From contig RFHX01000166.1 of assembly GCA_003695725.1 (NCBI GenBank), positions 1 through 8,626 of the forward strand: DNA of 8,626 bases, written 5' to 3'. This stretch comes from J061 sp003695725 [NCBI: Candidatus Schekmanbacteria bacterium]. Its GTDB lineage: Bacteria > Schekmanbacteria > GWA2-38-11. Positions 1 to 8,626 of the stretch are shown here, piece after piece. The notes under the pieces were generated by a model. The model ran no database searches. It was given only the letters and a program-made list of their open reading frames with translations, and was not told the origin of the DNA. Positions within the stretch are counted from its first letter, which is position 1; each line of letters begins with the position of its first letter. A program made the translations under genes and the position numbers.

Positions 1-1185
1 TCTCTTTTGCTTGAAAGATTAAAAAAAGAAATCCTCTCAAACGATTTGATCAGTGTTTATTATGAAAGTGTTGTTGAAGATGTGCGCGGATTTATGGGCA
101 ATTTTGAAGTAAAAATCAGCCAAAGAGGTAATGGAGGAATAAGCCCTTTCAAATGCGGAGTTGTTGTAGTGGCAACAGGAGGCAAGGAATATAAGGGGAA
201 TGAATACCTCTATGGTGAGAGTGAAAATGTCAAAACTCAGCTTGAACTCGAGGAAATACTAAAAGAAAACCCGGATGAAATTAGTAATCTAAAAAGAGTT
301 GCAATGATACAATGTGTTGGGTCAAGAAATGAAGAAAGACCATATTGTTCGAGAATATGCTGTACGGAAGCGATAAAGAATGCACTCAAAGTGAAGGAAC
401 TTTCTCCTGATACTGAAGTTGTCGTTTATTATAGAGATATCCGCGCTTTTGGATTTAGGGAGAAATATTATACAAAGGCAAGGGAGAAGGGCATCATTTT
501 TATCTGTTTTAATGAAGAAGAACCGCCTGAAGTAGAGGAGAAGGAAGGAAAAATCAGGATAACTGTAAAAGATAGGGTTTTGGGATTAAAGGTAAGCCAA
601 ACATTCGATTTGCTTGCGTTGAGTATGGCAGTTGTGCCTTATGAAGAAAACAAAGCGGTATCTGATGCTTTGAAAATTCCCTTGACTGCTGATGGATTTT
701 TCCTTGAAGCGCATATGAAACTTAAACCCGTGGATTTTGCATCAGAAGGAATATTTCTTTGCGGAATGGCGCATTTCCCAAAGTTTATGGAGGAGAGTAT
801 AGCGCAAGCACTTGCAGTTTGCGGGCGAGCAAATACTATTCTTGCAAAAGATAAACTTTATGTTGGAGGATCAATTGCAGTTGTAGATGAAAACAAGTGT
901 GCATCCTGTTTGACCTGTGTGAGGACTTGCCCTTATCAGGTACCAAAAATTTTGGATAGAGTAGCACATATAGAAGTTGCCCAGTGTCAGGGATGTGGCA
1001 CCTGTGCGGCTGAATGTCCTAATAAAGCGATCCAGCTTCTTCATTACACAGATGAACAAGTTATAGCAAAGTGTAATTCATTTACATTGCAAGAAGAGAA
1101 ATTAAAGAAAGAGAGAGAGGAAAAGAAGAAAGAATTGGGAGAAAGTTCCCAAGAATTGCAGCAAGAAAAACAAAATCATCAATAA
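1..1185 (+). CDS. hdrA: HdrA-like flavoprotein subunit of heterodisulfide reductase (5'-truncated)
   Basis: This is the C-terminal part of an HdrA-type protein. The frame is open from base 1, so the N-terminal flavin/NAD(P)-fold part lies outside the window and the TTG at 7 is not a real start. Visible in order: the end of a Rossmann-like fold (VVVATGG, about 166-186); a Cys motif at 313-363 (CVGSRN, then CSRICC), typical of HdrA and thought to bind a [4Fe-4S] cluster in the thioredoxin-reductase-like domain; an FAD-binding stretch around 751-830 (GIFLCGMAHFPK, then ESIAQA); and two ferredoxin-type motifs, CxxCxxCxxxCP, at 898-933 and 985-1020. In the family HdrA is the electron hub, taking electrons from MvhD or other donors and passing them to HdrC/B and ferredoxin, in the cytoplasm. 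The last 40 or so residues are an unusual Lys/Glu/Gln-rich tail. The mvhD-like gene follows 3 bases after the stop. The family assignment is firm; the physiological direction is not known. Confidence 0.93.
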   Translation, partial: SLLLERLKKEILSNDLISVYYESVVEDVRGFMGNFEVKISQRGNGGISPFKCGVVVVATGGKEYKGNEYLYGESENVKTQLELEEILKENPDEISNLKRVAMIQCVGSRNEERPYCSRICCTEAIKNALKVKELSPDTEVVVYYRDIRAFGFREKYYTKAREKGIIFICFNEEEPPEVEEKEGKIRITVKDRVLGLKVSQTFDLLALSMAVVPYEENKAVSDALKIPLTADGFFLEAHMKLKPVDFASEGIFLCGMAHFPKFMEESIAQALAVCGRANTILAKDKLYVGGSIAVVDENKCASCLTCVRTCPYQVPKILDRVAHIEVAQCQGCGTCAAECPNKAIQLLHYTDEQVIAKCNSFTLQEEKLKKEREEKKKELGESSQELQQEKQNHQ

Positions 1186-1188
1186 ATT

Positions 1189-1674
1189 ATGGAAGAGCTA
1201 AAAGAAGATAGAGAACTAAGAGGCGAAGGCGAAATGATGACTTCAGGCGATTATGAGCCGGAAGTCATAGCTTTTTGTTGTTATTATTGCGCATTTGCAG
1301 CGGCTGATATGGCTGGGTCATTGCGACTTCAATATCCTGCAAATGTGAAGATTATCAGGATACCCTGCACAGGCAAACTTGACATTGTTTATATATTGTC
1401 TGCCTTTGAAAATGGAGCGGATGCTGTGTTCGTAGCAGGATGCCTTGAAGGCAACTGCCATTATTTAAAGGGCAACATTCGTGCAAAAGCGCGTGTGATG
1501 AGCTTGAAAAAGATGTTTGAAGAAATAGGAATTGAACCTGAACGGCTTGAAATGTTCAATATGTCCTCTTCAATGGGACAGGCATTTGCAGAAGCGGCAA
1601 CGGAGATGACGCAAAGGGCACTTAAATTAGGAAGAAGTCCTGTTATTACGGGAAGGAAAAAGAAGAATGAGTGA
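1189..1674 (+). CDS. mvhD: MvhD-like [2Fe-2S] electron-transfer subunit
   Basis: This small iron-sulfur protein resembles the delta subunit of F420-non-reducing hydrogenase, which transfers electrons between a partner oxidoreductase and HdrA. The Cys signature is complete: CCYYC at residues 30-34, PCTGKLD near 59, and GCLEGNC near 84-90. Conserved helices follow, and the tail is basic. Length (161 aa) is in the family range. The start is uncertain. The ATG at 1189 is 3 bases after the hdrA stop and has no clear Shine-Dalgarno, while ATG 1234 (residue 16) has GAAGG just upstream and gives an N-terminus (MMTSGDYEPEVIAF) more like the family, so 1234 may be the true start. The stop overlaps the hdrC start by 8 bases (ATGAGTGA), which suggests translational coupling. 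No hydrogenase large or small subunit is in the window, so its electron donor is unknown. Confidence 0.9.
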   Translation: MEELKEDRELRGEGEMMTSGDYEPEVIAFCCYYCAFAAADMAGSLRLQYPANVKIIRIPCTGKLDIVYILSAFENGADAVFVAGCLEGNCHYLKGNIRAKARVMSLKKMFEEIGIEPERLEMFNMSSSMGQAFAEAATEMTQRALKLGRSPVITGRKKKNE

Positions 1675-2242
1675 GATTACACTTGAAAATAAAACAAAGG
1701 AATTTCGTGAGCTGATTGAGAAAATCAGCAGGCAGAATGTAAATGCCTGTTATCAGTGCCTTAAATGTAGTGCGGGATGTCCAATGGCAGATGAGATGGA
1801 TTATACACCGGCGCAGATAATTCATGCAATACGTTTGGGGCTGGAAGATTATGTGATTACAAGCGGCACTATATGGGTATGTGTAAGTTGTGAAACCTGC
1901 TCCACAAGATGCCCGCAGGGAGTCGATATTGCCCATATAATGGATGCGGCTCGAAATATAGCATATAGGCGCGGGATTAATCCGCCAGCAGAATCAAGGG
2001 AGATTTCTGACTTTTACACTGTTGCTCTTAATAACATAAGGGCTTATGGACGGATGTATGAGCTTGGTTTGGTATTAGGGCATAAAATAAAGACAGGCGA
2101 CTATTTTAAAGATATGAAGCTTGGTATGAAGATGGGATTGAAAGGGAAGCTTAAACTTCTGCCAGCAAGAATACGCAATGTCAAAGCTATTGATAAGATA
2201 TTCAAGAAAGTTTCTGAAATTGAAGAGAAGGAAAAGGTATGA
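1667..2242 (+). CDS. hdrC: HdrC-like heterodisulfide reductase subunit, two [4Fe-4S] clusters
   Basis: HdrC is the small iron-sulfur protein that carries electrons between HdrA and the HdrB active site. The sequence shows two classical motifs of the HdrC type, CYQCLKCSAGCP (Cys 28, 31, 34, 38) and CVSCETCSTRCP (Cys 72, 75, 78, 82), separated by a helical linker (YTPAQIIHAIRLGL). An all-helical C-terminal region ends in a very basic and then charged stretch (residues 155-191). At 191 aa it is of usual size. Its ATG lies inside the end of mvhD, with GGAAGG at 1651-1656 as a plausible ribosome site, and its stop overlaps the hdrB start by 4 bases (ATGA). There is no transmembrane segment, so this is not the membrane-linked HdrE/DsrM type. 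HdrC and HdrB are separate proteins here rather than fused as HdrD. Confidence 0.93.
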   Translation: MSEITLENKTKEFRELIEKISRQNVNACYQCLKCSAGCPMADEMDYTPAQIIHAIRLGLEDYVITSGTIWVCVSCETCSTRCPQGVDIAHIMDAARNIAYRRGINPPAESREISDFYTVALNNIRAYGRMYELGLVLGHKIKTGDYFKDMKLGMKMGLKGKLKLLPARIRNVKAIDKIFKKVSEIEEKEKV

Positions 2243-3111
2243 GTTATTCATATTATCCGGGTTGTTCGCTTCATTCAACAGGTGCAGAATATGATGTTTC
2301 CATAAAATTCGTTTTTAAAAAACTCGGAATTGAATTTGAAGAGATAAAAGGATGGAACTGCTGTGGGACAACTCCTGCGCATTGCACTTCAAAATATCTA
2401 TCAATAGCTTTGCCCGCGAGAAATTTGAAACTTGTCGAGGATTCTGGCAATAGTAAAGTTGCTGTGCCTTGCGCTTCCTGTTTTTCAAGGCTGAAGAGGG
2501 CACGATACGAGATATCGCAGGACAAGGAGTTGGCGCAGAAGGTCAATGAGATTATAGAAGCAGATTTTTCAAACACTGTTGATGTCATTCATCCCCTTGA
2601 CATTATAAAGAACGATATTGGAATCGATAGGTTGAAAGAAAAGATGGAAAAATCTCTTTCAGGCATAAGAGTTGCCTGTTACTATGGATGTCTTATGACG
2701 AGGCCTCCTGAAGTAACTGAGTTTGATAACTGTGAATATCCTGTTATTATGGATGAAATACTTTCAGAAATGGGTGCAGAGCCAATAGATTGGGGGTATA
2801 AAACCGATTGCTGTGGAGCAAGTTTTTCCATTTCGAGAATCAGTTCTTCCTTGAAGCTAATGAGTAAAATTTTTAAAGATGTTGCTTCAAGAGGTGCAGA
2901 CTGCATTTCTGTTGCCTGTCCATTGTGCCATGCAAATTTGGATACGAGACAGGAAGATATCAATAATGCGGAAGGCACAAAATATAGCATTCCTGTCTTC
3001 TATTTTTCTGAGCTATTAGCCCTAGCCCTTGGTGCAAAGAAGGGAGACCTTGCATTTAGAAAACATATTATAGACCCATCTGTGATTCTTCAGCAGTATG
3101 ATATTGGATAA
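2239..3111 (+). CDS. hdrB: HdrB-like catalytic subunit with two complete CCG domains
   Basis: HdrB is the disulfide/dithiol-handling subunit of heterodisulfide reductase. Both CCG (cysteine-rich) domains carry the full ligand set for the non-cubane [4Fe-4S] clusters described in methanogen HdrB. Domain 1 has Cys9, Cys41-Cys42 (NCCG), Cys78 and Cys81 (PCASC). Domain 2 has Cys151 (YYGC), Cys191-Cys192 (DCCGA), Cys227 and Cys230 (CPLC). At 290 aa it is the standard length. The start overlaps the hdrC stop, with GAAGGA at 2227-2232 positioned correctly. Because no cluster ligand is lost, the protein should be catalytically competent. The natural substrate is not readable from sequence. CoM-S-S-CoB is unlikely in a bacterium, and a small thiol, a persulfide or a protein-bound dithiol such as lipoamide are possible alternatives. 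Confidence 0.94.
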   Translation: MSYSYYPGCSLHSTGAEYDVSIKFVFKKLGIEFEEIKGWNCCGTTPAHCTSKYLSIALPARNLKLVEDSGNSKVAVPCASCFSRLKRARYEISQDKELAQKVNEIIEADFSNTVDVIHPLDIIKNDIGIDRLKEKMEKSLSGIRVACYYGCLMTRPPEVTEFDNCEYPVIMDEILSEMGAEPIDWGYKTDCCGASFSISRISSSLKLMSKIFKDVASRGADCISVACPLCHANLDTRQEDINNAEGTKYSIPVFYFSELLALALGAKKGDLAFRKHIIDPSVILQQYDIG

Positions 3112-3137: not shown

Positions 3138-3488
3138 ATGGCAAGACCAATCTTATTCCTTTTAAAACCGGGATTTTTTGATGGCAGTGAAGGTCCCTTT
3201 TTTTGTCCTGATTGTGCAATGGTTGAAGGTTTTTTGGCTTATATGCCTCAGATTGGGGATGAAGTTGAAATTAGAAGAATAGATTTTAAGAAACCAAGAA
3301 AGGAAATTGTCGAACTTCTTGGAGAAGAAAATCAGGGATGTCCCGTCCTTATTCTTACGAATGATGCAGATAATGTTTCTGATGAAATTAAAAGGAGTCA
3401 AACAACAGGGCGAAGCTTTATAGCTGGTGCTCTGGAAATTTGTCGTTTTTTAGGCAAAAAATTCAGATTTGCCATACCTCATTCTTAG
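3138..3488 (+). CDS. DUF3088-like small protein with a CPDC motif
   Basis: This soluble 116-aa protein starts with a hydrophobic beta strand (RPILFLLKPGFFD), followed by FFCPDCAMVEGFLAY with Cys23 and Cys26 as a CxxC pair at a helix start. A second strand region (VEIRRIDFKKPRKEIVELL), then GCPVLIL and a C-terminal GRSFIAGALEICRFLGKKF complete it. From memory, the pattern LLKPGF...FxCxxCAxxEG...RPR...E.NQ..P.L.L matches DUF3088, a family with no established function. The order strand, CxxC at a helix N-terminus, strand, and a Pro-containing GCPVL segment recalls thioredoxin/glutaredoxin folds, which suggests a thiol-disulfide role, but this is an inference. It sits 26 bases after hdrB with a good ribosome site, so it is probably co-transcribed with the Hdr subunits. 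There is no signal peptide or membrane segment. Confidence 0.75.
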   Translation: MARPILFLLKPGFFDGSEGPFFCPDCAMVEGFLAYMPQIGDEVEIRRIDFKKPRKEIVELLGEENQGCPVLILTNDADNVSDEIKRSQTTGRSFIAGALEICRFLGKKFRFAIPHS

Positions 3489-3544: not shown

Positions 3545-5014
3545 ATGACACCTGCAAAAATTGAAAAATTCGTAATTGTTCTTCTAATTGCCATTGCTAT
3601 TTTTTTTATATTTCTTCGTTTCATCCATTTGAAAGCAGATTTTCCTTCAAGCATAACATGGTCAAGTGCGCTTTATACCGATGAAGGATGGTATTCAAGC
3701 GGCGCAATATCTTATGTGCTTAGCGGCAATTGGTATAGGAAGGGAGATTTCAACCCGGCAATCAATATGCCACTGTTTCATTTGATTCAATTCGTCGTAT
3801 TTTCATTATTGGGAAAGAGTTTGTTCTCTGCAAGAATTACAGGCGTATTTTTTTTCATACTCCTTACAATTTTAGCCACCTTATTGGCGTATAGGTATGT
3901 TGATAAGAAAGGGGCTTTTTTCACTGCTTTTTTCCTTTCTATCAACTATATCCTTTTTTCATATTCTCGCCTTTCGCTTCTTGAAATTACTATGGTATCA
4001 TTTGTTCTCCTTTCATTGTTTACAGTTTCATCTTTCAGAGGATCGAACGATTTTCTCGTTATAACTGTATCATCTTTGATTCTGTTTCTTGCGCAATTAG
4101 TCAAAGCAACTGCCTTTTTTGCCATTCCTCTTTTGATTTATATTTCATTAATGAGAAGTGAAAGATGGAGAAAAAAGTTTTTATTTACTCTTACCATCCT
4201 ATCTTCTTTTTTTATTTCAACAGTATTCTACAATATTTATGTAAGAAGTATTTATCCTGAAGACTTTTCCTATTTTAAAACAATCAATGTTGATGAAAGA
4301 ATGTTGACAGACGGGTTTTCAGTATGCAAAAACTTTTACCAATCTCTTTTGGCAGGACGATTGATAGAGCCCTTTATTTACATAATCGTGATGATTATTT
4401 GTTTTATTGCTTTTTTGTCTTCTGAAGAATTTAGAAGAAATAAAATCGTCATTCTGTCTCTATTATGGATTGCTTCTTATAGCGGCGTATTGGCTTTCAG
4501 TAAATATCATCCCCCTCGTTATTTTCTGCCTTTGGCAGTACCCATTGCTTTTTTATTTGGAATTGTTATCTCCTTCATTTGGCGGAAATCAAGCAGAAAG
4601 TATGCCATTTTTGTTTCGTTGCTCGTTGTTGTGTATTTGCTTTTTTTCGATGGCTACAAAATTGTAAAATACATAACAAATCCTCATTATAGTTTTTTTA
4701 ATATGTCAAAAGAAATTAACAAGATTGTCCTCAAGGAAAATTCCTCTGATGAAAGAATGATTTTAATGGGGGATTTCGCTGATTCTATTGCATTGACTGC
4801 AAATGTTTATCCAATAAATGCAAAAGTAGGGACAAAGCAGTTGAACTGGAAAATAAGGAAATATTCTCCTCAATATTTTGTTTCTCTTGGGAAGGATGCG
4901 AGCACTTTAGGTTTGTTGTCTAAAAGCTGTAAAGTGAAAAAAATTGGCGAATGGAATGTCTTTGATAACTATTATTTTGGAAGAAAAGTCTTGCTGTACA
5001 GGTTATCAAAGTAG
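3545..5014 (+). CDS. Polytopic membrane glycosyltransferase, GT39/PMT/ArnT-like
   Basis: This 489-aa protein has a first membrane helix at about residues 8-28, roughly ten more between 75 and 375, and a soluble C-terminal portion of about 110 residues. The first extracytoplasmic loop carries the acidic pair Asp46-Glu47 (YTDEGWY), the hallmark of GT-C enzymes of the GT39/PMT family. SRLSLLE (Arg142, Glu147) and HPPRYFLP (Arg325) are also usual in that family. Such enzymes move a sugar from a polyprenyl-phosphate carrier to a lipid, protein or glycan outside the cytoplasmic membrane; the acceptor here cannot be told. No strong Shine-Dalgarno precedes the ATG, only an A-rich stretch. The gene is T-rich in the coding strand, as expected for so hydrophobic a protein. 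It is 56 bases after the DUF3088-like gene and functionally unrelated to either flank, and it may be an insertion between the hdr and lipoyl modules. Confidence 0.85.
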   Translation: MTPAKIEKFVIVLLIAIAIFFIFLRFIHLKADFPSSITWSSALYTDEGWYSSGAISYVLSGNWYRKGDFNPAINMPLFHLIQFVVFSLLGKSLFSARITGVFFFILLTILATLLAYRYVDKKGAFFTAFFLSINYILFSYSRLSLLEITMVSFVLLSLFTVSSFRGSNDFLVITVSSLILFLAQLVKATAFFAIPLLIYISLMRSERWRKKFLFTLTILSSFFISTVFYNIYVRSIYPEDFSYFKTINVDERMLTDGFSVCKNFYQSLLAGRLIEPFIYIIVMIICFIAFLSSEEFRRNKIVILSLLWIASYSGVLAFSKYHPPRYFLPLAVPIAFLFGIVISFIWRKSSRKYAIFVSLLVVVYLLFFDGYKIVKYITNPHYSFFNMSKEINKIVLKENSSDERMILMGDFADSIALTANVYPINAKVGTKQLNWKIRKYSPQYFVSLGKDASTLGLLSKSCKVKKIGEWNVFDNYYFGRKVLLYRLSK

Positions 5015-5241: not shown

Positions 5242-5691
5242 ATGGCAAAGATAGAAGGTTATGAAATGCCTGATGAGCTTTACTATCATACTGAGCATAG
5301 TTGGGCAAGAGTGGAAGATGGAAATGTAAGAGTTGGTATGACAGATTTTTTCCAGCAACAGGCAGGGGCTGTGGTGTATGTCGATTTGCCTGATGAAGAT
5401 GATGATGTAGAGGCAGGAGAAGTTTGCGGCAAAATTCAGACAAGAAAGTGGATAGGAAAACTTGTAGCACCTGTTGGAGGAACGATAATAGAAGTGAACG
5501 AAGAGGTCAATGAAGATAATACGCTTATAAATAAAGATCCTTACAATGAGGGATGGATTCTTCTCATTGAACCTTCAAATCTCGATGAAGACCTCGGCAA
5601 TTTAATCCATGGCGATAAAGTTGAAGAATGGATCAAATCTGAAATCAAGAGGGCAGAAGAATTGAAAGCGCAAGGTGGAGGCGGAGAATAA
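5242..5691 (+). CDS. GcvH/LbpA-like lipoyl carrier protein
   Basis: This 149-aa protein has the GcvH fold signature: YHTEHSWARVE near residue 15, VRVGMTDFFQQQAGAVVYVDLP, the lipoyl hairpin, then VNEDNTLINKDPYNEGWILLIEP. The lipoylated lysine aligns to Lys69 in IQTRKWIGKLVAPVGG. Ordinary GcvH has ESVKAASDLYAPVSG at this point, so the acidic residue three before the lysine is Gln66 here, and Trp-Ile-Gly-Lys replaces Ala-Ala-Ser-Asp. A K-W-[IV]-G context is, as far as I recall, closer to lipoate-binding proteins (LbpA) of the sHdr sulfur-oxidation system than to glycine cleavage H protein. No gcvT or gcvP is in the window, and the next genes are a ligase and two sulfur-inserting enzymes, so this is probably their substrate. 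The C-terminus has an extra charged, Gly-ending tail. The fold is certain; the LbpA-versus-GcvH assignment is not. Confidence 0.9.
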   Translation: MAKIEGYEMPDELYYHTEHSWARVEDGNVRVGMTDFFQQQAGAVVYVDLPDEDDDVEAGEVCGKIQTRKWIGKLVAPVGGTIIEVNEEVNEDNTLINKDPYNEGWILLIEPSNLDEDLGNLIHGDKVEEWIKSEIKRAEELKAQGGGGE

Positions 5692-5717
5692 ATTCTCTCT
5701 GCAACCCTCTTTTGGAG

Positions 5718-5740
5718 TAAATATCATCGTATTTATTTTT
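5718..5740 (+). other. Weak AT-only hairpin with T tract between carrier and ligase genes
   Basis: TAAATA and TATTTA form a six-pair stem with a six-base loop, followed by TTTTT, and G-U pairs could lengthen it on the 5' side. It is too weak for a convincing intrinsic terminator. It could lower ligase expression relative to the carrier or be chance in AT-rich DNA. Confidence 0.2.
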
Positions 5741-5747
5741 AAATCAT

Positions 5748-5755
5748 AGGAGAGG
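5748..5755 (+). promoter_or_regulatory. Shine-Dalgarno site supporting a GTG start
   Basis: AGGAGAGG ends 8 bases before the GTG at 5764. There is no nearby in-frame ATG, so this site decides the start of the ligase gene. Confidence 0.7.
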
Positions 5756-5763
5756 ATTGAAAA

Positions 5764-6822
5764 GTGGAGAAGTGGCGATATATCAAGGAATGGGATAAGC
5801 TTGTTACTCCTGAATATGGATTGGCTGTTGATGATACATTGCCTTATTCTGTTGCAGAAAAGGATTCCCCTCCAATACTTCACCTCTACCGATTTGAGCC
5901 ATCGGCAATAGTAGGGAAGTATCAAGATATTCGAGCAGCGCTGAAGATTGACCGCTGTAAGGAGCTTGGAATACATTATAATAGAAGAAGTACAGGCGGC
6001 GGCACTGTCATAATGGGGCCAAAAGCAGTTGCCCTTGGCTTTGGAATTTCATTAAAGCATCCTGCAATGCAGGGAGGAATAAAAGGCATCTTCAATACTA
6101 TGAGCCAAATACTTATCAGAACATTGGCTGATTTTGGAATCAAGGGCTCATTTCGCCCAAAAAATGATTTGGAGGTTAATGGGAAGAAGATAGCAGGGCT
6201 TTCAGCTTCGGCAGATGTTGATGATGCAATACTTTTTCATACAAGTCTTCTAATTGATTTTGATATAAATTTGATGCTTGAAATTATGAATACTCCAGTG
6301 GAAAAGATTTATGATAAAGGTTACAGCTGTTTTAGTGAAAGAATGACAACTATGGAAAAAGAGATAGGTGAAAAGATTGATGTTGAAGTTGTTATGGAAA
6401 GTTTAAAAAAGTCATTCGAAAAGCAGTTTGGAGTTGTATTTGAAGAAGATGAACTGAGTGACTGGGAAAAACAAAAAGTAAAATGGTTTGATGCAAAAAG
6501 ATATCGCGACGAAAAATGGATATTTTCTAAAAGACATCCAAAATACAAGATGGGGGAAGGGCTTCTTAAAACTCCCGGAGGATTGTTACAGGTATATATA
6601 TCACTTGCAGGTGGAGTGATAGAGAATCTTATGATAACAGGTGATTTTTTTTCAACAGGCGAAGATATTAACCGCCTTGAATCAAATTTGAAATATACAA
6701 TGGTTAATCGGGAGAATATCGAGAATTCCCTCAGACAAATATGGAAGGACGATATTATTTATGGGGTAGATATTCCTACATTGACAACTGCAATTCTAAA
6801 GGCAAGTGAAAACTGTGTTTAA
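5764..6822 (+). CDS. lplA: Lipoate/octanoate-protein ligase (sLpl/LplA family)
   Basis: This enzyme belongs to the biotin/lipoate A/B ligase superfamily. It is predicted to activate lipoate or octanoate with ATP and attach it to the lysine of a carrier domain, here most likely the protein encoded 72 bases upstream. The nucleotide/lipoyl-binding motif RRSTGGGTV is at residues 74-82, and KNDLEVNGKKIAG is at 133-145 with Lys142 as the expected catalytic lysine. Residues 255-352 match a C-terminal accessory (LplB-type) domain (YKMGEGLLKTPGG, then SLAGGVIENLMITGDF), so both domains are in one chain of 352 aa. The stretch after GGGTV is IMGPKAVALGF, lacking the His and Gly-Asn of E. coli-type LplA (VxHDxGN). 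This is consistent with a divergent subfamily such as the sLpl ligases that act with LipS1/LipS2. The start is GTG with a good ribosome site. Confidence 0.88.
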   Translation: MEKWRYIKEWDKLVTPEYGLAVDDTLPYSVAEKDSPPILHLYRFEPSAIVGKYQDIRAALKIDRCKELGIHYNRRSTGGGTVIMGPKAVALGFGISLKHPAMQGGIKGIFNTMSQILIRTLADFGIKGSFRPKNDLEVNGKKIAGLSASADVDDAILFHTSLLIDFDINLMLEIMNTPVEKIYDKGYSCFSERMTTMEKEIGEKIDVEVVMESLKKSFEKQFGVVFEEDELSDWEKQKVKWFDAKRYRDEKWIFSKRHPKYKMGEGLLKTPGGLLQVYISLAGGVIENLMITGDFFSTGEDINRLESNLKYTMVNRENIENSLRQIWKDDIIYGVDIPTLTTAILKASENCV

Positions 6823-6882
6823 TTATCTCCAGTGAATGATTGTATTTGATTCAATTGGCGGCATTCATATCAGAGAAAGGAC

Positions 6883-8001
6883 TTGTCGAGAAGTTTTCCT
6901 GAAAAGAGATTTTTAGAAATGTATGAAATGAAAAACCAAAAAAATAAAATTCTAAGTAAAAAGATAGTTACGAACGAAAGCCCTGAAACAGTCAAATTGA
7001 GTCTTGCATCGGCGATGGCTTTGGATTTAAAGCCGGGATTATTTTATCGGAATGCGCAGAATCCCTGTATCAATATTCTTTTGAAGTATAATGAAGGTTG
7101 TTATGCCAAATGCGCTTACTGTGGGCTGTCAAAAGCGCGAAATGGTGAATATGATGAAAAATCATTCATCAAAGTCGAATGGCCATCATATCTGCTTGAA
7201 GAAGTTGTAAAAGCTATTGAGAAAAAGAGAGAAAGAATTAAACGAATCTGTATCTCAATGGTGACTAATCATCGCGCAATTGCAGATACTCTTCAAATCT
7301 TGACATATATTAGAAACCGTCTTGATACACCAATTTCGGTATTGCTTTCTCCCACAATAGTAAAGAAGAAGGATATGGCAAGAATGAAAGAGGCAGGTGC
7401 CGATAAAGTTGGGATAGCGCTCGATGCAGCAAATAAAAAGATATTCGACCAATTGAGAGGAAGAGAGGTTAAAGGTCCCCATAAGTGGGAAAGGTATTGG
7501 GATGCTATTGATGAAGCTGTTGAAATATTTGGGAAGGGTAATGTGGGCATCCATATGATTGTTGGCTTAGGCGAAAGTGAAAAGGAATTCGTCGATTTAA
7601 TGTTCGAGTTTAGAAGGCGCGGTGCTAAAACCCATCTCTTCTCATTTTTTGCAGAGGAAGGGTCTCCATTAGAAGGTCTTTCACCTCCTCCTATGGGCAA
7701 ATATAGAAGAATGCAGATAGCAAGATATTTGATTGATGAAAGGCAAATCGATGAAGATGAAATAACTTTTACTGAGAAAGATGAAGTGAAATCCTTTCTA
7801 ATACCGGCAAAAGAATTTGAAGAAATGATCAGTGATGGCACTGCTTTTGTTACAAGCGGCTGTAGTGGAAAAGATGGAAAAGTTGCATGCAACCGTCCCT
7901 ATGGAGACAGCCTACCGGGTGATAATATCAGAAGCTATCCTTTCAAGCCCGATTCTTTGGATATAGCAAGGATAAGGAAGCAGATTTTTAGTTATGAGTG
8001 A
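6883..8001 (+). CDS. lipS1: Radical SAM enzyme, probable LipS1-type lipoyl synthase component
   Basis: The radical SAM cluster motif CxxxCxxC is at Cys73, Cys77 and Cys80 (GCYAKCAYCGLSKAR). It is followed by a TIM-barrel-like region with SMVTNHRAIAD, GADKVGIALDA and HMIVGLGESEKE, and a C-terminal TSGCSGKDGKVACNRPYGDS with Cys327 and Cys336. The barrel and C-terminus resemble biotin synthase-like proteins. LipS1/LipS2 were annotated as biotin synthases before being shown to carry two [4Fe-4S] clusters and to replace LipA. Cys62, Cys327 and Cys336 are candidate ligands for the second cluster. Position after a lipoate ligase and 8-base overlap with a second radical SAM gene support this reading; S1 versus S2 is tentative. 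The start is uncertain: TTG 6883 is the first possible codon after an in-frame stop at 6847 but has its purine-rich site only a base or two away, while ATG 6919 or 6928 would remove 12 or 15 unconserved-looking residues. BioB is unlikely as no bio gene is nearby. Confidence 0.75.
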   Translation: MSRSFPEKRFLEMYEMKNQKNKILSKKIVTNESPETVKLSLASAMALDLKPGLFYRNAQNPCINILLKYNEGCYAKCAYCGLSKARNGEYDEKSFIKVEWPSYLLEEVVKAIEKKRERIKRICISMVTNHRAIADTLQILTYIRNRLDTPISVLLSPTIVKKKDMARMKEAGADKVGIALDAANKKIFDQLRGREVKGPHKWERYWDAIDEAVEIFGKGNVGIHMIVGLGESEKEFVDLMFEFRRRGAKTHLFSFFAEEGSPLEGLSPPPMGKYRRMQIARYLIDERQIDEDEITFTEKDEVKSFLIPAKEFEEMISDGTAFVTSGCSGKDGKVACNRPYGDSLPGDNIRSYPFKPDSLDIARIRKQIFSYE

Positions 8002-8626
8002 ACAGCTCGATAAAGAATTTGAATCTCTTCTGGAAGAATCACGAGCTCTTTCATGGAAAGAATTTGGCAGAAGCATAACTATGTATCTGCCGGGAATGAT
8101 AAGATGCGGCAGTGAAACTGGCCTTTATCCTGCTGTTTCCATATCAGGAGGCAAGTGCCTTCTAAATTGCGACCATTGTATGGGCAAGGTCCTTGAACCG
8201 ATGATTGAAGCAAAAGACGAGGAAACTTTATTGGATGTTTGCAGGAGGATAAAGGAAAGAAACAATATTGGTGTGTTGTTGAGCGGAGGAAGTGGTCTTG
8301 ATGGGAAAGTTGGATGGGATAGATATACTGATATCATTAGAAGGATAAAGGATGAGACCGGACTTCATATATCCATTCACACAGGTATTCTGGATAAAGA
8401 TACGGCTTATTCCTTGAAATCTGCCGGTGTAGACCAAGCACTGACAGATGTGATAGGGAGTGATGACACTTTGAGAGAAGTTTATCATTTAGACTGCGGT
8501 GTAAAAAAAATTGATGAAACACTGAACGCTTTATGCGAAGCAGGTATAACAATTGTCCCGCATATAGTTGCAGGTATTCATTATGGAGAGTTTCGTGGGG
8601 AATACAACGCTATTGAGATTGTGAAA
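7994..8626 (+). CDS. lipS2: Second radical SAM enzyme, probable LipS2-type lipoyl synthase component (3'-truncated)
   Basis: This frame starts at ATG 7994, overlapping the previous gene by 8 bases (ATGAGTGA), and is open to the right edge, giving 211 residues. The CxxxCxxC motif is at Cys55, Cys59 and Cys62 (SISGGKCLLNCDHCMGKVL), with a further Cys38 upstream (MIRCGSETG). GVLLSGGSGLDGKVGWDRY fits the glycine-rich SAM-contacting strand, and LHISIHTGILD, LKSAGVDQALTDVIG and ITIVPHIVAGIHYGE are TIM-barrel strands of radical SAM enzymes. In the split lipoyl synthase one partner inserts sulfur at C8 of the octanoyl chain and the other at C6. The overlap with a related enzyme and the ligase upstream make that role the best guess. 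The S1/S2 labels are assigned by order, not by diagnostic residues, and the C-terminus is not seen. Confidence 0.75.
   Translation, partial: MSEQLDKEFESLLEESRALSWKEFGRSITMYLPGMIRCGSETGLYPAVSISGGKCLLNCDHCMGKVLEPMIEAKDEETLLDVCRRIKERNNIGVLLSGGSGLDGKVGWDRYTDIIRRIKDETGLHISIHTGILDKDTAYSLKSAGVDQALTDVIGSDDTLREVYHLDCGVKKIDETLNALCEAGITIVPHIVAGIHYGEFRGEYNAIEIVK

Follow-up and report, generated by a model that had tools for sequence, protein, structure and literature searches.

The window analysed here is the whole of contig C166, 8626 bases long, from the 2.77 Mb draft genome (97.8% complete; G000) of a Candidatus Schekmanbacteria bacterium, and the system in question is a cluster at its downstream end that encodes a predicted lipoyl carrier protein together with the enzymes likely to lipoylate it. 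Four consecutive open reading frames (ORFs) on the + strand make up this cluster: a GcvH-like (LbpA-like) lipoyl carrier of 149 amino acids (aa) (5242..5691; PF01597, E 5.2e-35), a lipoate/octanoate-protein ligase of the sLpl(AB) type with 352 aa and a GTG start (5764..6822; PF21948, E 9.8e-40, and the C-terminal domain PF10437, E 6.3e-10), a LipS2-type lipoyl synthase subunit of 372 aa (6883..8001) and the first 211 of the 315 codons of a LipS1-type subunit (7994..8626). The two subunits were assigned from family models (NF053743 for LipS2 and NF053742 for LipS1), trees and conserved ligands. Intergenic gaps of 72 and 60 bases separate the carrier from the ligase and the ligase from LipS2, and LipS2 and LipS1 overlap by 8 bases. 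A preliminary description of this DNA, drawn from its letters alone, had read a carrier, a one-chain ligase and two overlapping radical SAM genes with CxxxCxxC motifs in a row; indeed, the matches to GCV_H, to LplA-B_cat plus Lip_prot_lig_C and, twice, to Radical_SAM fall at these coordinates, and the motif is present in LipS2 as CYAKCAYC (C73-C80; 7099..7122, + strand) and in LipS1 as CLLNCDHC (C55-C62; 8156..8179, + strand). Judged by the NCBIfam E-values and by the gene order kept in relatives, the four-gene match is beyond chance.

LipS1 is cut at the contig end. Contig C350 shares 46 identical bases and completes the protein to 315 aa; there, LipS1 is followed by a gene for a 98-aa TIGR04076 protein and by a large ORF, in whose place the related genome G003 has a TonB-dependent receptor (Pfam). 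Upstream of the cluster and on the same strand lie, in this order, the end of an HdrA-like gene, the genes MvhD/FlpD, HdrC and HdrB of heterodisulfide reductase (Hdr) type, a DUF3088 gene and a membrane glycosyltransferase-like gene. Scans of the window for Rfam families, tRNAs and promoters or terminators gave nothing informative, and neither gcvT nor gcvP was found among the ten window proteins scanned.

The carrier protein

The proposed lipoyl lysine of the carrier is K69 (codon 5446-5448), which lies within TRKWIG and is common to 12 of 13 aligned proteins; this alignment includes the partly masked carrier of genome G002, which is absent from the motif counts and the carrier tree, and carrier rows outside 100-170 aa were dropped before trees and residue counts. 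The pattern KW[VIA]G, directly after the lysine, occurs in 22 of 22 carrier rows (KWxG carriers) versus 0 of 35 GcvH and archaeal B rows, and a quick tree (no bootstrap) groups the window carrier with archaeal carriers (97), apart from 33 GcvH rows. Its sole cysteine is C62, so that the protein lacks the two conserved cysteines near the N- and C-terminus that are described, some archaeal LbpAs excepted, as the mark of LbpA (Cao 2018, PMC6067878). Most KWxG carriers are also without an LbpA-type pair: 18 of the 22 rows have at most one cysteine, and three or four occur in one Bacillota row and its L026 relative.

Against the gcvH model TIGR00527 the carrier scores 107.1 bits and misses the cut-off of 115.85, which the genome's own GcvH passes with 174.2 bits. 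This score alone is not decisive, since the carrier of the S-type locus L162 (see below) passes with 118.9 bits. The subfamily model PRK01202 gives the window carrier 127.5, above its cut-off of 117, and a PDB search returned 14 matches, which are glycine cleavage H proteins. Identity as GcvH was rejected on the missed gcvH cut-off, the KWxG motif and the position outside the GcvH clade, and the carrier is most likely an LbpA-like protein of the KWxG type rather than a glycine cleavage GcvH.

The ligase and the lipoyl synthase pair

The ligase combines the LplA catalytic domain (PF21948) and the LplB C-terminal domain (PF10437) in a single chain, as had been claimed for it and as is characteristic of sLpl(AB) (Tanabe 2023, PMC10332631); relatives in matching position share 75% identity in G003 and 68% in G002. 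LipS2, whose TTG start is uncertain (the profile match begins at residue 37), reaches 236.6 bits (E 3.8e-70) with NF053743, and the joined 315-aa LipS1 reaches 221.1 bits with NF053742 (E 5.7e-40 for the truncated protein of the window alone). The BioB model TIGR00433 (cut-off 225) gives 44.2 and 44.8 bits, respectively, and the lipA family (TIGR00510) is absent among the matches of both proteins at E <= 0.001. The check by profiles and trees that the preliminary description had suggested places the pair with LipS2 and LipS1, at scores just under the cut-offs, and not with BioB or LipA, two identities ruled out by profile scores, trees and Fe-S ligands.

The Fe-S ligands of LipS1 and LipS2 have been mapped in Thermococcus kodakarensis (Neti 2022, PMC9585515), where those given for the auxiliary clusters are C230, C276, C277 and H159 in LipS1 and C85, C276, C279 and H178 in LipS2. 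Paired with these residues by spacing and conservation and not through an alignment with the T. kodakarensis sequences, the counterparts are C55/C59/C62, H190, C262, C309 and C310 in the window LipS1 (each kept in 57 or 58 of 58 rows) and C73/C77/C80, C123, H224, C327 and C336 in LipS2 (each kept in 60-62 of 62 rows). The last two LipS2 cysteines, presumed auxiliary-cluster ligands in a C-x8-C loop (C327-C336; 7861..7890, + strand), have 8 residues between them versus 2 in the T. kodakarensis set. A PDB search with LipS2 gave no match, and in a plasmid search no match reached 80% query coverage; the annotations among the 20 listed are chiefly MSMEG_0568-type. Profiles, trees and ligands together support the predicted identity of the radical SAM pair as LipS2 and LipS1.

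Canonical lipoate machinery in the genome

The absence of LipA- and LipB-type genes, from which the cluster could be taken to replace them, holds for the window and fails for the genome, where the full search found both: LipA lies on contig C208 (380.1 bits, cut-off 310), and LipB is split over two contigs overlapping by 99 bases (157.6 bits on the larger piece, cut-off 83.55). The genome also holds the glycine cleavage genes gcvT-gcvH-gcvPA-gcvPB, with its own GcvH between gcvT and gcvPA and a second ligase-like gene adjoining gcvPB, as well as two E2 matches and a dihydrolipoyl dehydrogenase (E3; 524.7 bits, cut-off 408.8). Because of these genes, the cluster neither replaces a missing LipA/LipB pathway nor is the genome's only lipoate pathway; it forms a second, parallel lipoylation line. 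Sulfur oxidisers are likewise described as carrying a second line beside the canonical one (Cao 2018, PMC6067878).

Conservation within the phylum

Four genomes of the phylum were compared: the source genome G000, G001, G002 (70% complete) and G003. The carriers of G003 and G002 share 82% and 69% identity, respectively, with that of the window, and the order carrier-sLpl-LipS2-LipS1-TIGR04076 is kept in G000, G003 and G002; the proposed association of a carrier with ligase and LipS genes is conserved in three of the four genomes. The G001 locus starts inside LipS2 at a contig end and continues with LipS1 and TIGR04076. No carrier of the window kind was found in this genome, where the carrier and ligase may lie in the gap, since the LipS locus begins at the contig end.

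In each of the four genomes, the gene after LipS1 encodes a TIGR04076 protein (L017:2549-2842, - strand; L056:16238-16525; L057:747-1022, - strand; L094:1760-2041) in which four cysteines are invariant, and its AlphaFold model (pLDDT 62.9) is too poor for a fold search. In a separate set of genes of G003 (L058:6983-10723), two longer GcvH-like proteins flank NrfD-like and Fe-S proteins; the one that was aligned (L058:9977-10723) has N where the lipoyl lysine would be, and genes of sizes similar to this set also occur in L059 (G002) and L060 (G001).

Two LipS lineages in Bacillota

Among 398 Bacillota genomes, 86 carry LipS1 at E <= 1e-45, in 98 places. The surroundings of 60 of these places were examined, namely 37 of the 38 scoring <=243.8 bits and 23 higher-scoring ones; two places of genome G006 were covered separately via loci L026 and L095, and 36 higher-scoring places lie outside the sample, where S-type loci would be missed. 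Typing by nearest reference gave 39 G-type loci, linked to the glycine cleavage system (GCS), and 21 S-type loci. After rows with LipS1 outside 240-420 aa, LipS2 outside 260-420 aa or LipS containing X were dropped, 47 of the 60 loci contributed a LipS1 row and 53 a LipS2 row; the S-type loci L151, L163 and L164 gave no LipS1 row from ORF picking, and tblastn finds LipS1 there.

A gcvP gene lies near 35 of the 39 G-type loci; none of the 39 has a KWxG carrier, and a CCG-like motif occurs in two, both times inside fused LipS proteins. The 21 S-type loci show no gcvP, and hold a KWxG carrier in 12 cases, sLpl in 20, LipT in 12 and a CCG protein in 11. An HdrB- or HdrD-like protein is present in 10 of the 12 carrier-bearing S-type loci, the two without a CCG protein being L146 (a 3.5 kb contig) and L154 (with DsrE/DsrF/DsrH genes); among the nine carrier-less loci, a CCG protein occurs in one.

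The LipS1 tree has a branch (95/96) that separates 26 rows (12 S-type, the four of the phylum and 10 ungrouped) from 32 others, namely 29 G-type rows, which form a single clade (100/99), and three references, two of which stand for one archaeal form of LipS1; the four rows of the phylum adjoin the other archaeal form (88/84). A quick LipS2 tree (no bootstrap) groups 13 S-type rows with three of the phylum and nine ungrouped ones in a set of 25 (97), and two divergent S-locus LipS2 paralogues lie outside it. Between the last two LipS2 cluster cysteines, the window protein and two relatives have 8 residues. Of the 24 S-type rows, 22 have 8 or 9, the two exceptions being divergent paralogues without cluster ligands, and the number is 2 in all 33 G-type and both archaeal rows (the counts include the L026 reference as S-type and the L095 reference as G-type). 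As judged from these trees and spacings, the predicted LipS pair of the window falls with the S-type lineage, apart from the gcv-linked one.

Gene order at some S-type loci places carriers among Hdr-type genes. In L026, E2, ligase, LipB-like and LipA genes are followed by a carrier, a GlcD-like FAD protein, an HdrD-like CCG protein, a second carrier, an FAD oxidoreductase (labelled LipT by its place), LipS2 and LipS1. In L162-L164 the order is carrier, HdrC, HdrB and HdrA, then sLpl, LipT and LipS2, MvhD being a separate gene in L164 and a domain of HdrA in L162.

Small CMD (AhpD-like) genes recur beside KWxG carriers (L162:19106-19450; L128:13414-13773; L143:17720-18064; L159:14796-15152). 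These genes of 114-119 aa were considered as E2-like lipoyl domains, an identity given up because the one tested (L162) belongs to the CMD family by Pfam; in L026 the E2 carries a fused CMD domain, and it is to this tail alone that the four genes show a match. Also found beside carriers are additional LipS1- or LipS2-like proteins that are divergent and lack part of the cluster ligands (L159:13771-14841, L159:15175-16194 and L128:12290-13336). G-type LipS proteins of 590-714 aa occur in L129, L131, L135 and L180, and those of the first three probably comprise LipS1 and LipS2 in one chain.

Relatives in archaea and on plasmids

A contig scan returned 22 loci encoding relatives, L026 among them. 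The best carrier relatives are found in Methanosarcinaceae (58% identity) and in Methanosarcinales including ANME-2 (47-49%). In the archaeal clusters (L022-L025 and L030), LipS1 and LipS2 lie nearby, and both ligase parts are present in three of the five loci, L024 being cut at its start and L022 showing the small ligase part alone; at the 16 loci other than these five and L026, the window proteins match the carrier only. A protein of 302-307 aa stands between LipS1 and a second GcvH-like gene in two archaeal loci (L022:8534-9454, L025:8530-9435); its only match is a weak one to M23 peptidase in L025, the L022 protein having none. The Acidithiobacillus ferrooxidans plasmid pACF1 encodes a KWAG carrier with cysteines near both ends (L089:787-1233), close to genes annotated as hemerythrin-domain, heterodisulfide reductase-related and CMD-family. 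A plasmid search with an L164 carrier gave GcvH-annotated or unannotated places among the 30 of 160 matches listed.

The upstream Hdr genes and their neighbours

The upstream part of the window encodes, all on the + strand, the C-terminal 394 aa of an HdrA-like subunit (1..1185; NF040770 HdrA2, E 1.2e-80, and copies in G003 and G001), an MvhD/FlpD-like subunit (1189..1674; PF02662, E 1.8e-47), an HdrC-like subunit (1667..2242; TIGR03290, E 1.2e-21, under its cut-off) and an HdrB-like subunit with two CCG stretches, a candidate disulfide reductase partner of the carrier (2239..3111; PF02754, E 1.5e-21; TIGR03288, E 1.5e-57, under its cut-off). HdrB relatives share 72% identity in G003 and 56% in G001. 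The Hdr genes of the window resemble the end of a larger array (compare L092 on contig C8 of G000, L090 in G003 and L091 in G001) that reads HdrC, HdrB, two HdrA-like genes, MvhD, a very long HdrA-like gene, MvhD, HdrC and HdrB; the G003 relative of the window HdrA-like protein has 1490 aa. Upstream on C8 lies a gene for a 650-aa protein, which we take to resemble aldehyde ferredoxin oxidoreductase. The genome has two HdrB-sized CCG genes, one on C166 and one on C8, both in HdrA-MvhD arrays with HdrA-like proteins of at least 419 aa. An sHdr cluster was not seen in the draft genome, for which no sHdr-specific model was run and most other CCG surroundings are unexamined.

The DUF3088 protein (3138..3488, + strand; PF11287, E 7.8e-37) carries a CPDC motif and may, at a guess from that motif, be thioredoxin-like; its AlphaFold model (pLDDT 36.6) is too poor to read the fold. 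The G003 copy, which is 57% identical and also lies upstream of the carrier, has CPEC, C23, P24 and C26 being invariant between the two; DUF3088 was not seen in the LipS loci examined from G002 or G001. The PMT_2-family membrane glycosyltransferase-like gene (3545..5014, + strand; PF13231, E 1.4e-6) is probably unrelated, and among the phylum loci compared it has matches only in overlapping pieces of its own contig.

Proposed role and alternative explanations

The cluster very probably provides a LipS-type lipoylation line devoted to an LbpA-like carrier, besides the ordinary machinery. From the families concerned, sLpl would activate free octanoate (or lipoate) with ATP and join it to K69 of the carrier; LipS2 would then add sulfur at C8 and LipS1 at C6 to give the lipoyl arm, an order that follows Neti 2022 (PMC9585515). 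The separate LipB/LipA system presumably serves the GcvH and E2 proteins of the genome. The lipoyl arm probably acts as a dithiol/disulfide (or persulfide) shuttle, most likely for a disulfide reductase of the Hdr-type, non-cubane Fe-S kind. The recurrent CCG neighbours, including those of L162-L164, point to Hdr-type reductases, and HdrABC-MvhD would be the best candidate in the genome, an identification that we offer tentatively; the partnership is plausible but unproven, because the adjacency is not conserved in relatives.

Several observations weigh against this picture. Both LipS subunits miss the cut-offs of their models (270 for NF053743 and 230 for NF053742), and the LipS1 proteins of G003, G002 and G001 likewise fall under that of NF053742. 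Support for the S rows as such in the LipS1 tree is 75/81, nine of the 21 S-type loci show no carrier, and the Fisher values (p = 0.0019 for CCG proteins with carriers, 2.1e-7 for carriers in S versus G, and 1.0e-6 for CCG proteins in S versus G, with the two fused LipS matches excluded) are guides only, because the loci are related and their labels come from nearest references. No LipT was found among the typed genes beside the cluster. Within the window, 2.1 kb separate the end of HdrB from the carrier downstream, and this stretch holds DUF3088, the seemingly unrelated membrane gene and a 227-base gap. HdrB is 18.4 kb from the carrier in G003, the Hdr and LipS genes are on different contigs in G001, and G002 (70% complete) yielded no close HdrB. 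Given the distance in G003 and the separate contigs in G001, the adjacency is not conserved in the phylum, and HdrABC-MvhD plus carrier as one conserved operon is not borne out among its genomes.

That the adjoining Hdr genes are mere neighbours, the carrier serving an enzyme encoded elsewhere, is a real possibility, somewhat short of probable: the adjacency is lost in relatives and the conserved block has no evident catalytic partner, whereas 10 of the 12 carrier-bearing S-type loci, and none of the 39 G-type ones, have a CCG protein nearby (the two fused-LipS motif matches excluded). The carrier could instead pass electrons to thioredoxin-like or AhpD/CMD-like proteins in thiol or peroxide chemistry, with no Hdr partner. 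AhpD is reduced by lipoylated SucB; DUF3088 with its cysteine motif stands upstream of the carrier in G000 and G003, and CMD genes occur in S-type carrier loci (L162, L128, L143 and L159) and are annotated on the A. ferrooxidans plasmid. However, the window has no CMD gene, DUF3088 is not seen in the G002 and G001 loci examined and its thioredoxin likeness is a guess, and we regard such a role as improbable.

Two further explanations assign the carrier to established pathways. An LbpA of the sulfur-oxidising sHdr pathway, as in Hyphomicrobium or Acidithiobacillus, would come with the same maturation genes; KWxG is found in the pACF1 carrier with cysteines near both ends, and sulfurtransferase-like genes lie beside the carrier in L154 (DsrE/DsrF/DsrH) and L163 (DrsE_2). 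This identity is nevertheless distinctly improbable in view of C62 as the only cysteine instead of the reported terminal pair, of the HdrA-MvhD arrays around the two HdrB-sized CCG genes (C166 and C8), and of the L163 DrsE_2 protein being without match in the genome, in a search lacking a positive control. A spare glycine cleavage H protein, with the cluster serving glycine metabolism, would agree with the PRK01202 score and with the gcvP genes near most G-type LipS loci; it is hardly credible, as the carrier misses the gcvH cut-off that the genome's own GcvH, encoded beside gcvT and gcvP, passes, and as the LipS pair and the carrier fall outside the gcv-linked and GcvH clades, respectively.

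Beyond this genome, there might be a class of lipoyl carriers, outside central carbon metabolism and sHdr sulfur oxidation alike, that serve reductases of the classical HdrABC-MvhD (or HdrD/GlcD-like) type as disulfide substrate. The phylum, Bacillota and Methanosarcinales would share this class, which would go with a separate LipS lineage, recognisable by a KWxG motif in the carrier and, among bacteria, by a C-x8/9-C loop in LipS2. This generalisation is speculative, and we consider it doubtful as a whole.

Comparison with known systems and significance

As the preliminary description correctly stated, the pathway is known from archaea and some sulfur-oxidising bacteria. The sHdr-associated LbpA/sLpl(AB)/LipS1-LipS2 cluster has in common with the window a GcvH-like carrier, a one-chain ligase and two radical SAM proteins, placed near Hdr-type genes in genomes that also have LipA and LipB. 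In contrast, the window has one carrier cysteine instead of two, HdrA-MvhD-HdrC-HdrB instead of sHdr, an added TIGR04076 protein and no LipT among the typed genes of its cluster. The GCS-linked LipS1/LipS2 of Bacillota likewise combine both enzymes and a ligase with a GcvH-fold protein, H protein and ligase neighbourhoods of LipS having been noted in Neti 2022 (PMC9585515), but belong to another LipS lineage, with C-x2-C instead of C-x8-C in LipS2, a GcvH without KWxG, and gcvT/gcvP present. The Methanosarcinales/ANME-2 clusters hold the nearest carriers of the scan (47-58%), with KWVG in the aligned ones; LipS1 and LipS2 lie close by, and most of the clusters include a ligase. They differ by two LipS1-like genes, a split ligase, a second GcvH-like protein, an extra protein of 293-307 aa and, in the two LipS2 aligned, C-x2-C, unlike the C-x8-C of the window. 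The LipB/LipA pathway, present elsewhere in the source genome, also makes protein lipoyl groups, with a different synthase family.

Earlier work describes the enzymes as well as the notion of a private carrier (Cao 2018; Neti 2022; Tanabe 2023), and the possibility that Hdr-type neighbours reduce or oxidise the lipoyl group was already proposed in Neti 2022 (PMC9585515). The window cluster is seemingly a variant of this published pathway outside sulfur oxidation; a carrier without the LbpA cysteine pair, the lack of a visible sHdr cluster and the HdrABC-MvhD genes upstream go beyond the preliminary description. A literature search of titles and abstract starts, with subscription journals mostly uncovered, returned no paper on KWxG carriers with classical HdrABC-MvhD. 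In the present analysis, the carriers and their accompanying LipS lineage are set apart from the glycine-cleavage kind.

Few functions of lipoate are known. According to Tanabe 2023 (PMC10332631), sHdr is found in only 42% of the bacteria that carry LipS1/S2, and Neti 2022 (PMC9585515) asked what role lipoate has in archaea that have LipS and rarely E2. Both questions gain a concrete protein in the KWxG carriers, a family that can be identified from four letters of sequence, that has an assembly line to itself and that often occurs near Hdr-type disulfide reductases.

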